Shown here piece after piece: positions 2,192 through 7,493 of a DNA stretch of 64,000 bases. Source of the stretch: Ruminococcus sp. (GTDB lineage: Bacteria > Bacillota > Clostridia > Oscillospirales > Ruminococcaceae). The notes under the pieces were generated by a model. The model searched no databases and was not told the DNA's origin. It worked only from the letters and a program-made list of their open reading frames with translations. Location: assembly GCA_021770655.1 (NCBI GenBank), contig JAETQO010000004.1, forward strand, positions 1-64,000, written 5' to 3'. Numbering within the stretch: position 1 is the stretch's first letter; every line of letters starts with the position of its first letter. A program made the translations under genes and the position numbers.

Positions 2192-2575
2192 TTATTTTTT
2201 GCTTTCTTTTAGCCTGTGAATGGATATAAAAGGGTGAATCATTATGTAACTTATAATTTTTTGCCCTGTATATTCTGCCTGCGTTCTTAGTTCCTTGGGA
2301 TAGTACTTATTTGAATTAAGCATTTTTCCGCCGGCAACCAACATTTCACCTAAAGTAATATCACCATTCAAAATATAGTCCTGCATTTCAAAATCAAACA
2401 TATATTTATCATCTATATCGGTATAATCCAGAAGCTCATGATACATATGAATAAATCTGCTTTCTCCTGTTAGTTCAGTCAAATATTCAAAATAACTTTT
2501 CATTTTAATACGGCAGAACATTTTTTGAATGCTTTGATAATTATCGTTTTCACTAAACGATCTTAAATCAATCAT
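2192..2575 (-). CDS. Hypothetical protein of the element operon
   Basis: This 127-residue soluble protein is not recognised. It is predicted mostly helical, with many Tyr, Met and Ile residues, no signal peptide, no membrane segment and no cysteine cluster. It lies 7 bases after the preceding gene and 26 bases before the ClpP-like gene, so it belongs to the same leftward operon and probably to the same mobile-element module. No function is proposed. Confidence 0.65.
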   Translation of the reverse strand: MIDLRSFSENDNYQSIQKMFCRIKMKSYFEYLTELTGESRFIHMYHELLDYTDIDDKYMFDFEMQDYILNGDITLGEMLVAGGKMLNSNKYYPKELRTQAEYTGQKIISYIMIHPFISIHRLKESKK

Positions 2576-2582
2576 AAATCAG

Positions 2583-2951
2583 TCACCTCCTTTTTGACTT
2601 TTGAAACGGAACGAAACATGCCATCATTTGAGAAAAGTAAAACAATGCTGTATAGTAATTATCTTTAATTGTTTTGTCTTCTGTGTCATCTAATTGTAAT
2701 TGTGCCTGTTGCTTACGAACAATTTCTGCTATATTATAATACTTGAATTTAGAAAGCCTTTCTTTTGATATATCTATATCAACGGCTGGGAGCAGATAAT
2801 CCGACAGTGGATCACAGGTGCTCCACCGTCTTTTAACGTAAAGCTTTTCTATAGACATACTATAGATTTTATCCAATAAAATGCCGATACATTCCTTGTC
2901 CGTGACTGTCTGCGAATTTGCAGAGTTCTTAAACTCTTCGATATTCATCAT
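2583..2951 (-). CDS. Hypothetical protein of the element operon
   Basis: This 122-residue protein is not recognised. It starts at an ATGATG with GGAGATG upstream, has no signal peptide or membrane segment, and is helical and charged. Its C terminus is basic (KSKRR). It lies directly upstream of the 127-residue unknown gene with only 7 bases between them, which suggests translational coupling and possibly a physical complex. The hairpin GCGGCGCT-gta-AGCGCCGC at 3013-3031 separates it from the next upstream gene. Confidence 0.6.
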   Translation of the reverse strand: MMNIEEFKNSANSQTVTDKECIGILLDKIYSMSIEKLYVKRRWSTCDPLSDYLLPAVDIDISKERLSKFKYYNIAEIVRKQQAQLQLDDTEDKTIKDNYYTALFYFSQMMACFVPFQKSKRR

Positions 2952-3012
2952 ATAATTTCATCTCCTGTATATTTTTTGCAATAAACTCAAAAATCGCTTT
3001 CTTATTCACTCG

Positions 3013-3031
3013 GCGGCGCTGTAAGCGCCGC
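3013..3031. repeat. Short GC-rich hairpin between element genes
   Basis: An 8-bp stem GCGGCGCT/AGCGCCGC has a GTA loop and is preceded by ACTCG. A sister copy with the same flank (CTCGGCGGC...GCCGCTTT) lies at 3797-3814, upstream of the next gene. Both belong to the hairpin family that fills 3786-4345. Its position between two genes of one operon suggests an RNA processing or attenuation site. Confidence 0.6.
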
Positions 3032-3036
3032 TTTGA

Positions 3037-3756
3037 CTATGAATTTTTCAGTGTAAGACCCGAAGCAATACTGAAAGGTATAAGAATTAAATTTTCGATC
3101 ATTGAAATTCTGCTGTTTAAACCCTCATATGAAAAATGTGAAAAATCACCAAGGGTTACGATTACATCGCCTACCATAATTTCCTTGATATCCTTGCAGT
3201 CTTTTTGCTCTACCTCTGCTCTGATTTTTAGGTAGCATTCCGCAAGCTGAATTATATTTTTACTATTGCTGCCGGCACATAATGAACCTATTTCCCCAAG
3301 AAAATCTATAACTTTCATTTTCATCAGTTCTTTGACAGCATAGCTTAAATGAGGATCAACGCTTCCTGTATTTCTTTTCAAATATTGTCTGCCTATAATG
3401 TTTGCTGTTTTGTCGTCTACTATATACAGATTTTTACCTGTCGGCGATACAAAAACTTTCCGCAAAACATAAAAGTATACCATACGTTTAAAGTCAAAAA
3501 TTCTGTGTAGATTTACTCTTGTCTTAAAGTTCTCCTCTCCCGGCAGTTTCTTATCAATTTCTTCTTTCGTCGGAGCAATTTTTGAGTATATTTCAATAAA
3601 ATCTCTGAATGTATAATTCAGAATTTCGGGATTATCCTCCTGCAACGAAAATAAGTCACCCGGTGTTAAAGTTTGATAAGTATCCTCGCCGCAAAAATCA
3701 GTGAGTTTTGCGGTGAGAATGGTGTTTACAAATTCCTTGAATTCTTTTGATTTCAT
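3037..3756 (-). CDS. Hypothetical protein, first gene of the element operon
   Basis: This 239-residue protein is not recognised. I chose the ATG at 3756 because AAGGAG lies 9 bases upstream; an in-frame start 18 bases further out lacks such a site. The protein is soluble, Lys/Glu-rich and predicted mostly helical, with no visible catalytic motif. It is the promoter-proximal gene of the leftward operon that ends with the ClpP-like and VirD4-like genes. It is preceded by the long hairpin-rich leader. Confidence 0.65.
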   Translation of the reverse strand: MKSKEFKEFVNTILTAKLTDFCGEDTYQTLTPGDLFSLQEDNPEILNYTFRDFIEIYSKIAPTKEEIDKKLPGEENFKTRVNLHRIFDFKRMVYFYVLRKVFVSPTGKNLYIVDDKTANIIGRQYLKRNTGSVDPHLSYAVKELMKMKVIDFLGEIGSLCAGSNSKNIIQLAECYLKIRAEVEQKDCKDIKEIMVGDVIVTLGDFSHFSYEGLNSRISMIENLILIPFSIASGLTLKNS

Positions 3757-3785
3757 AGTGAAATCTCCTTTCATTATTTGATTTA

Positions 3786-4345
3786 TTATTACCTCGGCGG
3801 CACAGCAGTGCCGCTTTTCTGGTTTTTAAATACACTCGAAATGCGTATACGCATTTCTTATCCAAAAAAATCCGTTATACCATAAAGCATAACGGATAAT
3901 ATAAAAGTAAGAAAAAAAGAATTAATGACAATACGATTGAATTATTAAACAATCGTTTAAAATACACTCGTAATGCGCTCGCGCATTTTTTATTAACCTA
4001 AATAGTTAGAACTGCCTTTGGCAGTTCGAGAGTAATATAAAATAATAAATCAATTAAACTTGTGAAGCTGAGATTGACATATCCATATTGCATAAGCAAA
4101 GTCCATAAATAATAGGGCTTTAAAACGTTTTTTTGCAAAAACGCTCATTTAAGTAAAGAAACCATAAATGGTTTCGAGGGTAAATTAAATGACGGTTTAC
4201 TGTTCCGTCATTAGCCGAGTTCTGAGATACGCTCGGTAGCCATTGTAAATGGTTCCTTTCTCGAGCACCATTACAAGTTTGTTCGGGCAGTGTCATTGTG
4301 CTGCCCGACAAATGCTCGAAAAAACGACTATCGTCGTTCGAGGAA
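3786..4345. repeat. Array of about ten short hairpins with CTCG/TCGAG flanks
   Basis: This stretch has no credible gene but holds many inverted repeats: 3797-3814 (GCGGCAC stem), 3838-3857 (20-bp palindrome GAAATGCGTATACGCATTTC), 3870-3897 (ATCCGTTAT stem), 3972-3987 (AATGCGC), 4009-4027 (GAACTGCC), 4158-4175 (GAAACCAT), 4191-4209 (GACGG), 4239-4253 (CCATT), 4283-4308 (TCGGGCAG) inside an outer CGAGCA/TGCTCG pair, and 4323-4338 (AACGAC). Most begin after CTCG or end in TCGAG. The stem sequences differ while the flank stays the same, so this is not a simple tandem repeat. It could be a folded regulatory RNA, a set of protein sites, or a single-strand origin. Confidence 0.75.
4081..4162. repeat. 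Imperfect direct repeat, copy A (left of ssb-like gene)
   Basis: This block begins ATCCATATTG and ends AGAAAC. It matches 4911-4990 over about 80 bases with scattered substitutions. Similar but weaker agreement continues about 15 bases further upstream. The two copies enclose the SSB-like gene. Confidence 0.75.
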
Positions 4346-4433
4346 AATCCAAATTTCATAATAATTATCGGCAATAAATTGCTGATAAAATAAAAAAAAC
4401 AAATTTATAAACTATTGAAAGAGAGGTCATTTT

Positions 4434-4805
4434 ATGTCAAACATTAACAACTACGGTGTAGTAACCGGTAGGCTTTTGAAGGATGTTGCTGTTTTTAAAA
4501 ACGAGGACGGCAGTTACAGATCGGAGGTGAACATTAACGTCGACATTGATGGTAATTATGCAGATAAAAACAAAGCAAAACAATCTGAAACTGTTTTGCT
4601 TGAAGGGCTTATCGAAGCAGGACAAAAAGATAACAGTGTTTACAACAAAATGCACAAAGGCAATATCGTAAGCATTGGTTACACTGTCCGTAATGATAAT
4701 TACATTGATAAAAACGGAAACGAAACTTACCGTCAATTTCTTTTCATTGAAGAGGTCGATCTGATGGAAGATTTAAATGAAAACTCTGAAGTTCAATCTT
4801 CCTGA
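4434..4805 (+). CDS. SSB-like single-stranded DNA-binding protein
   Basis: This 123-residue protein has the N-terminal pattern of single-stranded DNA-binding OB folds (NNYGVVTGRLLKDVAVF, then a beta-rich segment and RQFLFIEEVDLM). The N terminus is fairly clear, but the middle is shorter and more charged than housekeeping SSB and the usual acidic tail is reduced to EVQSS. It is therefore an element-type SSB paralogue. AGAGAGG precedes the ATG. It is alone on the plus strand, between the hairpin array and a strong terminator, and is enclosed by an 80-bp direct repeat. Confidence 0.7.
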   Translation: MSNINNYGVVTGRLLKDVAVFKNEDGSYRSEVNINVDIDGNYADKNKAKQSETVLLEGLIEAGQKDNSVYNKMHKGNIVSIGYTVRNDNYIDKNGNETYRQFLFIEEVDLMEDLNENSEVQSS

Positions 4806-4817
4806 TTTTATCAAAGC

Positions 4818-4861
4818 AAGAACTCCGCTATGTATTTTTTCGCATAGCGGAGTTCTTTTTT
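4818..4861 (+). terminator. Terminator of the ssb-like gene
   Basis: A 15-bp perfect stem (AAGAACTCCGCTATG and its complement) has a 10-base loop and is followed by TTTTTT. It starts 13 bases after the ssb-like stop codon. Confidence 0.9.
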
Positions 4862-4910
4862 AGTATATCTTTATAAACAGATATTTTTTGTCTGATAGTC
4901 GAGTTGAATT

Positions 4911-4990
4911 ATCCATATTGCGTAAGAAAAGCCAGTAAACAATAGGTTTTTAAAATTATTTTTTTCAAAAACTCTCATGTATACAGAAAC
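4911..4990. repeat. Imperfect direct repeat, copy B (right of ssb-like gene)
   Basis: This is the second copy of the block at 4081-4162. It has the same order of landmarks: ATCCATATTG, a TAAG purine stretch, AATAGG, a T run, then CAAAAAC.CTCAT and CAGAAAC. It lacks the hairpin that directly follows copy A. Confidence 0.75.
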
Positions 4991-5076
4991 TACAATTGGA
5001 AAGTTTCCCCCCAGTGCATTGTCTACAGTCCCCCAAAACGACAATTACATTGAAAAAAAGTGGATAAAGTTTTCCG

Positions 5077-7302
5077 TCAAGGTGTTTTAAACATAGGATA
5101 ATGAACTAAAACGCCGGTTTCCTTTCCCGTGATCTTTGTCTCGTTTTCTGCCAGTTTTCCGTTAACTTCAAAGACATACGAGCTTATTACTCCGATACTC
5201 ATATGGTAATCCAGTATCGTTTTTACCTTTTCATAAAGTGTGCTCTTTTTTCTTTTTTTCAGATACTTGTCCTCCGGAATATCTATATCAAGAATATCAA
5301 GCATATCGGCTCTCCGGGAATCATCATTTTCAAATTTGATCATTCTGCTCATTGAGGATCTGTTTTTACGGTAATATGTACGTTTGGGATCTGAAAGTAT
5401 GATATGCCATGCAAGGTAAAATTTCAGTTCCAAATTCTCGATCGAATCCGGCATGATTTTTTTAGGCTTCTGTACATCATTCTGGCTTTTTACGCATAGA
5501 CGTTTCAGGGGAATTGTAAAAAATTGACCGTTAGTAAGCTCTGCATAACGGTACAGCGGAGGCGTTTCGGAATATCTGTAGCCGTTTTTCCCCCACTTCA
5601 TGAGAGGAAGAAATGGTCCCTCAAATATGTTAATATCCTTTTCATCCTCAAAGGCAAATCCATACTTTCCATTTGACCTGTCAAGCCTGAAATATGTATT
5701 CATCATTTTTTCCAGACTGTCTTCTATCTCTTTTTTTCTGTCGGGCTTTAATGTTACATCGGGATCACCCGATAAAACCTCCATGATTTTCTTCGGATAA
5801 ATTGTCTGAAGTTTCATTGTTTCGAGAGTATATACAGCGTCTGCCACCATTAAGTCAAAATATGTGAGTTTTCTGTCAATTCTAAATTCCACAGTAAGCT
5901 CCCTGAATTTATTTTTTTCGACCTTAACTATTTGTGGAACACACGACTCATAATTACCTTTTCGTATTAAATTCGCTGCCTTTGTAGTGTTAATATAAAG
6001 AACATCGATTGCTTTGAGTCGTTCCTCGATTTTGATCTGTTCTGCCTGTATTTCCTTGTCGTGCGAACATAATGGTCTGTGGTTTTTAAAGTAGTCAATA
6101 GTAAATCGATTCAGTTCATCACTTGTGGATTCTTCTTCCATTTTGCCATATGATTTCATATATTCAAGACGCTCTAACCCTAATTTGTATCTGAAATCAG
6201 AAGTTTCTTCATCAAATTCACTGTTTAATGCGGCATTTTTTAAAAATGATAAACAGATTTTAATATCATCTTCCGAATAATAAAGAATACATTCCGCCTG
6301 TTTTCTGTCACGCCCTGCACGACCTGCCTCTTGATAATAATTTTCAAGATCCTTTGGCATATCGAAATGAATAACAAATCTTATATTGCTTATGTCTATT
6401 CCCATTCCGAAAGCGTTTGTGGCTACCATAATGTTGTTTTTCCCACTTTTGAAAAGGTCAAAATTTTCTTTCTTATCTTCCGGTTCCATATCGCCGTGGT
6501 ATTTTGATACATTATAGTTTTTCATTTTCAGATGTTTATAAACATTTTCCGTGTTTTCCACCGTAGAACAATAGATAATTCCGCATTGATCAAAGTGTTT
6601 TGTCATGTATGCATACAGTGTCATCATTTTAGCTTGAAAATTTTTCCGATGTTTAACGCTGAATGTAAGGTTTGTTCTTTCATATCCTCCTGATACGATA
6701 AACGGCTGATTTAATCTGAGAATACGTATTATGTCCTCCTTTATAAATTCTGTAGCTGTTGCGGTAAATGCCGTAATTATAGGACGTTTATCCAGCATTG
6801 TTATAAATCTCGCAATTTTAAGATAATCCGCTCTGAAATCGTATCCCCATAAGGAAACGCAATGTGCCTCGTCTACTGTAATCATGCTGATATCCAGCTT
6901 TTGTGCAAATCTGATAAACTTTGGTTTCATGAGTCTTTCAGGCGACACATACAAGAGCTTGTAATTTTTCTTTTTATCATTGCTTGTAGCATCACGCATA
7001 ATTTTATTGCGTGTTTTACCGTCAAGCTCGCTGTTTATATATGCCGTATGAATTCCAAGCTTATTGAGTTTATCCACTTGATCCTGCATAAGAGCTATGA
7101 GCGAAGACACAACTACAGTTACACCTTCAAGCATTACAGCAGGGAGCTGATAGCAAAGAGATTTTCCACTTCCGGTAGGCATAACAGCCATAACGTCTCT
7201 GCCTTCAAGGATTGCTGTGATAACCTCCTCTTGCTTATATATAAAGCTGTCATTTCTGAAATATTTTTTCAAACAGTCTAACGGATCTTCGAAATTCGGC
7301 AA
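5077..7302 (-). CDS. RecQ-family ATP-dependent DNA helicase
   Basis: This 741-residue superfamily 2 helicase has a clear RecQ core. Motif I is MPTGSGKSLCYQLPAVM, motif II is DEAH in VDEAHCVSLWGYDFR, and motif VI is QEAGRAGRDRK. The typical RecQ zinc cysteines after the helicase core are not visible, and the C-terminal 350 residues do not show a recognisable RQC or HRDC domain. I chose the TTG at 7302 because GGGAAG lies 7 bases upstream; the longer GTG start at 7341 falls almost at the predicted transcription start and has no binding site. The gene is monocistronic. It may serve the chromosome or the adjacent element. Confidence 0.85.
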   Translation of the reverse strand: MPNFEDPLDCLKKYFRNDSFIYKQEEVITAILEGRDVMAVMPTGSGKSLCYQLPAVMLEGVTVVVSSLIALMQDQVDKLNKLGIHTAYINSELDGKTRNKIMRDATSNDKKKNYKLLYVSPERLMKPKFIRFAQKLDISMITVDEAHCVSLWGYDFRADYLKIARFITMLDKRPIITAFTATATEFIKEDIIRILRLNQPFIVSGGYERTNLTFSVKHRKNFQAKMMTLYAYMTKHFDQCGIIYCSTVENTENVYKHLKMKNYNVSKYHGDMEPEDKKENFDLFKSGKNNIMVATNAFGMGIDISNIRFVIHFDMPKDLENYYQEAGRAGRDRKQAECILYYSEDDIKICLSFLKNAALNSEFDEETSDFRYKLGLERLEYMKSYGKMEEESTSDELNRFTIDYFKNHRPLCSHDKEIQAEQIKIEERLKAIDVLYINTTKAANLIRKGNYESCVPQIVKVEKNKFRELTVEFRIDRKLTYFDLMVADAVYTLETMKLQTIYPKKIMEVLSGDPDVTLKPDRKKEIEDSLEKMMNTYFRLDRSNGKYGFAFEDEKDINIFEGPFLPLMKWGKNGYRYSETPPLYRYAELTNGQFFTIPLKRLCVKSQNDVQKPKKIMPDSIENLELKFYLAWHIILSDPKRTYYRKNRSSMSRMIKFENDDSRRADMLDILDIDIPEDKYLKKRKKSTLYEKVKTILDYHMSIGVISSYVFEVNGKLAENETKITGKETGVLVHYPMFKTP

Positions 7303-7379: not shown

Positions 7380-7493
7380 CTAAGCATATAAATTTGCATC
7401 TTGCCCGCCCATGTAATAGTACGGTTTGATTATCTCTACTCGCTCGTCAAATGGTATTATCCGCTGTATTTTTTCAAGGATAACACCGCACAA
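7380..7493 (-). pseudogene. Short C-terminal coding remnant (unrecognised)
   Basis: On the minus strand a 37-codon open frame ends at 7380 and reads like a real protein tail (IPFDERVEIIKPYYYMGGQ is internal to it). A stop codon lies directly upstream of the TTG at 7493 and no binding site is present. The stretch is bounded by an imperfect inverted repeat (7451-7465 and 7559-7573, ATGGTAWTA core) and holds a small hairpin at 7487-7508. It is probably what remains of a deleted gene. The parent family is not known to me. Confidence 0.3.

Follow-up and report, generated by a model that had tools for sequence, protein, structure and literature searches.

Sense-strand hairpin–CG[A/G]G units upstream of genes in a clostridial integrative and conjugative element and in some of its relatives: a candidate leader RNA motif

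The 64,000-nucleotide stretch of Ruminococcus sp. DNA analyzed here (the window) contains seven units, a to g, in which a short hairpin is followed by CGAG in the sense of the next gene. The same motif recurs with unrelated stems in some other integrative and conjugative elements (ICEs), again in gene sense and upstream of genes. We consider it probable that the units belong to a cis-acting leader RNA of one mechanism or another, antitermination and RNA processing included, and we put forward more tentatively a post-transcriptional version, in which the leader would act on translation or mRNA stability.

The contig start falls inside a conjugative element, the first genes of which are on the minus strand. 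A VirD4/TraG-type coupling ATPase gene of the CD1115 family (259–1656, minus), identified by a profile match of 302 bits to NF045973 against a cut-off of 250, is adjoined by a ClpP-like gene (1569–2165, minus), as in most related elements compared (19 of 24 related loci, two of the 24 being the same place). Two genes of unknown family follow at higher coordinates, one of 122 aa (2583–2951, minus) and one of 245 aa, o245 (3037–3774, minus), the true start of which is probably at 3756, judging from an AAGGAG eight bases ahead. On the plus strand lies a 123-aa gene (4434–4805) that we call SSB-like. This label is a weak one, supported by one plasmid match annotated SSB (34.5% identity, E 6e-12): the protein scores 21.5 bits against Pfam SSB, under the gathering cut-off of 26, and far under cut-off against NCBIfam SSB models, it has no match among PDB sequences at E ≤ 0.1, and its single-sequence predicted structure (pLDDT 49) was too poor for use. 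Genes to the right of about 5000 look chromosomal, for example a DEAD-box/helicase-C protein that we take to be RecQ-like. On another contig of the same genome (C41, locus L196 of G000), a VirB4-type ATPase gene and a partial MobL relaxase gene form a cluster that may be another part of the window's element or a second element.

The original prediction described about ten hairpins in some 560 gene-free bases, and this count is borne out. The interval 3786–4345 holds 11 non-overlapping perfect stems (at least 6 bp, loop 3–10), the longest being 9 bp, far above the mean of 1.5 (SD 1.1, maximum 6) in 1000 dinucleotide-preserving shuffles of the interval; the other 560-nt windows examined (n = 111) have a mean of 1.4 perfect stems and a maximum of 4. 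The interval has a predicted single-stranded DNA fold of −98.1 kcal/mol (z −8.2), and predicted RNA folds give z −6.2 for the plus leader (3998–4433) and z −4.4 for the minus leader (3757–4000). The description of a CTCG or TCGAG flank as nearly always present was too strong: a CGAG 3′ foot or CTCG 5′ foot is found on 6 of the 11 hairpins (shuffle mean 0.019, maximum 2) and is missing from those at 3870–3897, 3933–3956, 4126–4143, 4188–4212 and 4283–4308. Of two additional hairpins that had been placed beside the array, the one at 3013–3031 does lie outside it and is the seventh with such a foot, whereas the one at 3797–3814 lies within 3786–4345.

A CTCG before a stem is a CGAG after the stem on the opposite strand, so the two feet are one motif in two readings, and in the next gene's sense all seven units read hairpin then CGAG. 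The split by position (minus at 3013, 3797, 3838 and 3972; plus at 4009, 4158 and 4323) matches the direction of the flanking genes, with a, b, c and d preceding the minus-strand genes 2583–2951 and 3037–3774 and e, f and g preceding the plus-strand gene 4434–4805. Taken alone, this strand order is weak evidence, as 8 of 128 arrangements have at most one minus-to-plus switch. Unit a (2998–3033, minus; GCGGCGCT-TAC-AGCGCCGC, then CGAGTGAATAAG; hairpin 3013–3031) lies 5 bases past the o245 stop, between two operon genes and upstream of gene 2583–2951. Upstream of o245 are units d (3956–3991, minus; AATGCG-CGAG-CGCATT, then ACGAGTGTATTTTAAA), c (3824–3859, minus; GAAATGCG-TATA-CGCATTTC, then GAGTGTATTTAAAA) and b (3782–3816, minus; GCGGCAC-TGCT-GTGCCGC, then CGAGGTAATAATAAA), and unit d is probably a copy of unit c, to judge from a 38-nt repeat of 82% identity. 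Between d and c, a hairpin with a T run that is not a CGAG unit (3870–3897, minus) reads from 3897 to 3870 as a predicted intrinsic terminator. Upstream of the SSB-like gene are units e (4007–4041, plus; GAACTGCC-TTT-GGCAGTTC, then GAGAGTAATATAAA), f (4156–4189, plus; GAAACCA-TAAA-TGGTTTC, then GAGGGTAAATTAAA) and g (4320–4353, plus; AACGAC-TATC-GTCGTT, then CGAGGAAAATCC), the last 81 nt ahead of the SSB-like ORF. The SSB-like gene is also flanked by diverged copies (78%) of a stretch of about 97 nt, at 4074–4171 and 4904–4999; the second copy has another hairpin, without a CGAG flank, in the place of unit f.

Because no relatives of o245 or of the SSB-like protein turned up in 197 genomes of the family other than their own (E ≤ 1e-5 and 1e-8), other elements were compared via VirD4. 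No SSB-like relatives were found in 394 genomes of the order (E ≤ 1e-12), no relatives of either protein in viral contigs, in a search sensitive to close relatives only, and none or one distant in plasmids. A profile scan of genome contigs with a five-sequence VirD4 alignment gave 198 loci, the best 80 of which were used, and the main search set comprised 89 loci (1.49 Mb; eight locus pairs share sequence). In one of these, L275, from an uncultured Clostridia MAG, hairpins with other stems are followed by CGAGTGTATATTTGA, CGAGTGAATGAGTGA and CGAGTTTTAATTTGA, and a fourth unit carries CGGG; the units sit in about 700 nt ahead of an operon with clpP and virD4 as its last genes. Chance alone often yields a cluster of three hairpins with some tetramer in common, so the relevant test is of the extended flank. 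A covariance model built from three L275 units only (R2), free of any window sequence, gave 19 matches at E ≤ 10 over the 89 loci, three of them in L275 itself; among the 16 outside L275, window unit c ranked first (E 0.043) and unit a second (E 0.061), and of the 13 outside both L275 and the window, 11 shared the strand of VirD4 and 2 had the opposite one. Run on the window alone with filters off, R2 placed units c, a, e and f as the best four of 22 matches. With a model from L275 plus unit e (R1), the eight best matches in 2900–5000 were all seven units and the opposite strand of unit a.

A wider model, R3, with 14 seed matches from the window, L275, L278, L230, L224 and L280, gave 21 matches at E ≤ 3 over the 89 loci. 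Its non-seed matches at E < 0.1 were window units g and b and places in L216, L226 and L272, the last probably a chance match, being inside an ORF. At E ≤ 0.1, R3 finds units in 8 of the 80 VirD4 loci (L272 counted), five of which gave seeds; all 12 matches are on the VirD4 strand, against 69% for permuted controls there. A regular expression for hairpin plus flank gave 10 matches in the 80 loci, all 10 on the VirD4 strand, compared with a mean of 1.47 (maximum 8) for 299 permuted cores, the expression having been written after most loci had been viewed. Searching 79 loci for the flank first and the hairpin second, with a pattern that is likewise post hoc, gave 6 of 61 against a background of 0.7%. 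A detectable unit is absent from most VirD4 relatives, and many of the loci are incomplete.

Seventeen loci outside all models served as a held-out set: L358 and L359, which are new VirD4 loci from 391 genomes of the class; L354, a viral-contig record and the one locus that a search of viral contigs for VirD4 relatives gave; and 14 VirD4 loci at 33–42% identity. L358 (46% VirD4 identity) was the only one with matches at E < 0.1, at 0.0035 and 0.052 and both on the VirD4 strand; a third match there (E 2) lies inside an ORF. A direct hairpin scan of L358 found three units, all in VirD4 sense: a tandem pair upstream of a gene of 97 aa, and a single unit upstream of the gene ahead of clpP and virD4; we take the 73-aa opposite ORF over this last unit to be spurious. 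R2 alone recovered one unit in L358, at E 0.0017 in 20 kb. The other 16 loci gave nothing under E 0.1, including L354, which at 47% VirD4 identity is as close as L358 and overlaps with L258 from the set of 80, as well as L359 and L373, at 37–39% VirD4 identity. In 333 kb of own-genome control DNA, the best E was 0.35. The original prediction would have counted absence of the segment beside the same genes elsewhere against a conserved role, and on this point the outcome is mixed: around the ClpP–VirD4 pair, units are present in 8 of 80 loci, one of them probably by chance, and in one held-out locus.

Single-unit E-values are modest and their calibration rough, and lone matches are not evidence. 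Searched against the 197 family genomes, R1 had a match at E ≤ 1 in 30 others (best 0.001), and R3 had a match at E ≤ 0.05 in 32 others of 394 genomes; inspection of 11 such places showed an ORF overlap in 8, and many of the other places are one MITE-like repeat. The family- and order-wide matches are thus largely chance, where inspected, plus this repeat, and none of 29 loci scanned from the R1 family-wide matches has three CGAG-footed hairpins together. The MITE-like repeat (L352, L323, L326, L332, L336) has a hairpin tip, GGAATCC or GGAATAC, with CGAGTATTTTTAACGC after it, and many copies are found in genome G295, often at contig ends. In another genome (G167), large dispersed intergenic repeats of many strong hairpins (L155 4900–5850, 7770–8390, 17320–17750 and 18740–19180) show GTAG over-represented at stem feet. 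The pattern GCGGC..GCCGCCGAG gave only noise among the matches listed in viral contigs. A flank-only pattern in the window's own genome was set aside: the flank without the hairpin is uninformative because a reversed control gives more matches (25 vs 18). Sampled own-genome DNA, taken partly around flank-pattern matches, holds 8 CGAG-footed hairpins in 317 kb.

The units collected form 27 rows, seven from the window, five from Scatolibacter, four from L275, three from L358, two each from L216 and L229, and one each from L224, L230, L280 and L226. Automatic parsing of 26 of these gave 16 CGAG and 10 CGGG, with loops of 3–5 nt and stems of 6–8 bp, and the unparsed L226 row has CGAG by eye. There are 23 different 5′ arms among the 26 parsed rows; rows were picked as perfect hairpins, and their stem pairing is therefore not independent covariation. 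A TGA lies about 5–18 nt past the motif in 20 of 27 rows and is missing in 7, and at least three A in the four bases before the hairpin are present in 12 rows and missing from 15, including all L275 and L216 units. Pairing of CTCG in the left arm with CGAG in the right is possible in the window only and hence is not general, and an outer stem around hairpin plus flank, which single-unit folds had hinted at, was rejected, the longest complementarity between own flanks being no better than between swapped ones in 21 units (p 0.46).

The next ORF is on the unit's strand in 18 of 21 matches examined, one of the 18 (L272) being 1184 nt distant, and we take the opposite ORF to be spurious in two of the three exceptions. 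Overlap with an ORF is at most 12% in 17 of the 21 and full in 4, three of which involve opposite-strand ORFs that we also take to be spurious. All units of L275, L216 and L358 share one orientation within their locus, and in L216 and L280 clpP is directly downstream of units. In Scatolibacter (L278, three units of which are R3 seeds), five units lie on the VirD4 strand across 14 kb; one has its next gene on the opposite strand, another is separated from its gene by a hairpin resembling a terminator and by what looks by eye like a promoter, and these two do not fit a simple leader. In L226 (7968–8475), a spoVG-like gene near virD4 has a unit upstream; SpoVG is a nucleic-acid-binding protein, and the L226 protein is a candidate binding factor. 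At 7425–8640 of L214, variable-stem hairpins share a flank that is constant but different, AATGAA or ATTGAA some 10 nt downstream, and precede genes upstream of clpP–virD4, perhaps the same principle with another tag. A related element, L287 (7925–8200), carries a hairpin array with a conserved stem, GGTCTT/AAGACC.

In our proposal, the seven units represent repeated copies of one leader motif that a clostridial ICE carries on the sense strand. In the mRNA this motif would consist of a 6–8 bp hairpin of free sequence, then CG[A/G]G, then an A/T-rich stretch, with a TGA usually, not always, about 10–15 nt further along. Acting as RNA, it would be bound by a trans-acting factor, of the element or of the host, for which the shape of the hairpin and the sequence of CG[A/G]G are the recognition features, and this recognition would set expression of the next gene. 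The suggestion in the original prediction of selection for structure with a constant flank gains support insofar as some further ICEs carry hairpin plus CG[A/G]G with stems of their own, and its proposal of a structured regulatory RNA is supported by units in gene sense, upstream of genes and mostly without a convincing ORF. Its other proposal, a transfer or replication origin, finds no support: orientation follows the genes, several different genes are preceded within one element, and L275, L216 and L358 each have one orientation only.

Within a leader RNA, the units could instead form part of a processive antitermination or attenuation system, in which they would modify RNA polymerase from the nascent RNA so that it passes terminators, as put, EAR and conAn2 do. 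The strong terminator-like hairpin between units d and c would suit such a system, and an automatic search marks terminator-like hairpins in the 260 nt that follow 8 of 22 units; by eye three are convincing (window d, Scatolibacter 4 and 5). None is marked downstream of the other 14 units, however, weak terminator-like sites on the strand of the visible left operon (1–2500) number only two (four on both strands, 1.6 expected), and units also occur within that operon (unit a) and close to start codons. We regard antitermination as unlikely. Post-transcriptional control seems to us somewhat likelier because single genes have repeated units ahead of them, because a unit can be internal to an operon, and because units are often close to start codons.

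A second possibility is that the array functions as single-stranded DNA after conjugative entry, as an Frpo-like promoter, a priming site or part of an origin. The strong predicted single-stranded fold and the adjacent SSB-like gene would suit such a role, and published Frpo sequences lie upstream of ssb genes, as described in PMC11541004. The 9-bp maximum stem is too short to hold both a −35 and a −10, though, orientation follows the genes on either side of the divergent region, and with a single orientation in L275, L216 and L358 arm-to-arm pairing is not general; this reading is accordingly quite improbable.

Slightly more doubtful still, in our view, is an origin of the units from a small palindromic repeat of the REP or MITE type, as relics or copies with no part in regulation. 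Some local copies do exist (c and d in the window, S1/S2 and S3–S5 in Scatolibacter), as do MITE-like repeats with a similar tip in other genomes. REP and MITE families have conserved stems between copies, in contrast to the diverse 5′ arms found here; unit orientation follows genes, and in an own-genome R3 search, in which 17 of 316 first-look candidates were scored, every match at E ≤ 0.05 was an array unit.

Equally doubtful is the version of a leader RNA in which each unit is an endoribonuclease processing site, where a cut at the hairpin foot would separate cistrons and leave a protective hairpin on the upstream RNA: unit a, just past a stop codon and between two operon genes, is placed as expected, whereas for several units the nearest upstream gene is tens to hundreds of bases away, and the stems are short. 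Last, and very improbable, the units might be antisense intrinsic terminators or insulators, sense A-tract, hairpin and CGAG being antisense CTCG, hairpin and T-run; a terminator-like score on the antisense strand is obtained for stems b, d and f (for c the flag falls on the sense strand), and 12 rows have the A-tract, but even three A of four are missing from the other 15 of 27 rows, and a terminator has no need of CG[A/G]G.

Returning to the post-transcriptional leader, it is conceivable, and we offer it as speculation, that the CG[A/G]G hairpin tag is an undescribed class of cis-acting RNA that places clostridial ICE genes in a single post-transcriptional regulon, with a dedicated RNA-binding factor as its reader; genes from different sources would then be brought under shared control by picking up a tag with a free stem. 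To our knowledge, little is known of gene control in conjugative elements of gut Clostridia, and a short tag with free stem sequence eludes sequence-similarity searches. An element-wide RNA signal, if true, would make this regulation testable with simple reporters, and a dedicated factor reading the tag would represent a new RNA–protein recognition system.

Several known systems share parts of this arrangement. In the lambda nut sites (boxA/boxB), a small hairpin and a conserved single-stranded box are recognized together; in the units the order is hairpin then box, and no boxA-like sequence was noticed by eye. REP/RAYT and IS200/IS605 end hairpins have a conserved tetranucleotide at the hairpin foot, unlike which the stem sequences here are mostly unrelated between units. 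Rfam (release 15) gave no match at gathering score in the window or in loci L291–L297 and L299, and none at the units of six related loci, where RNase P and FMN matched elsewhere only; a relaxed search of 2500–5300 gave matches below gathering score only. Among the open-licence PMC papers listed by literature searches, judged by titles and the starts of abstracts, we found no such motif described.

Among the published conjugative systems, the conAn antitermination RNA (PMC8955417), like put and EAR, acts in cis where conjugation or other operons begin, whereas the units here are repeated before individual genes with few terminators seen. Of the many intrinsic terminators within an operon that go with conAn, the contig, which ends at base 1, has two weak minus-strand sites in 1–2500 and one strong site in the leader. 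The Frpo/ssi single-stranded DNA promoters (PMC11541004) are likewise conjugative-element hairpins near an SSB-type gene. An Frpo, though, mimics a double-stranded promoter, with −35 and −10 in one long stem, and by this feature the array, with stems of 6–9 bp, is not one. EGeRS1 of pLS20 (PMC8708921) consists of several long copies of 420–750 bp, 62–95% alike, placed ahead of establishment operons; within its own genome the array segment has a single match besides itself, 96 nt long and at 78%, and it thus falls outside that family. As in EGeRS1, the units described here are structured non-coding sequence directly upstream of ribosome-binding sites at several operons of a Gram-positive conjugative element; they differ in being about 35 nt long, with only structure and a short flank in common.
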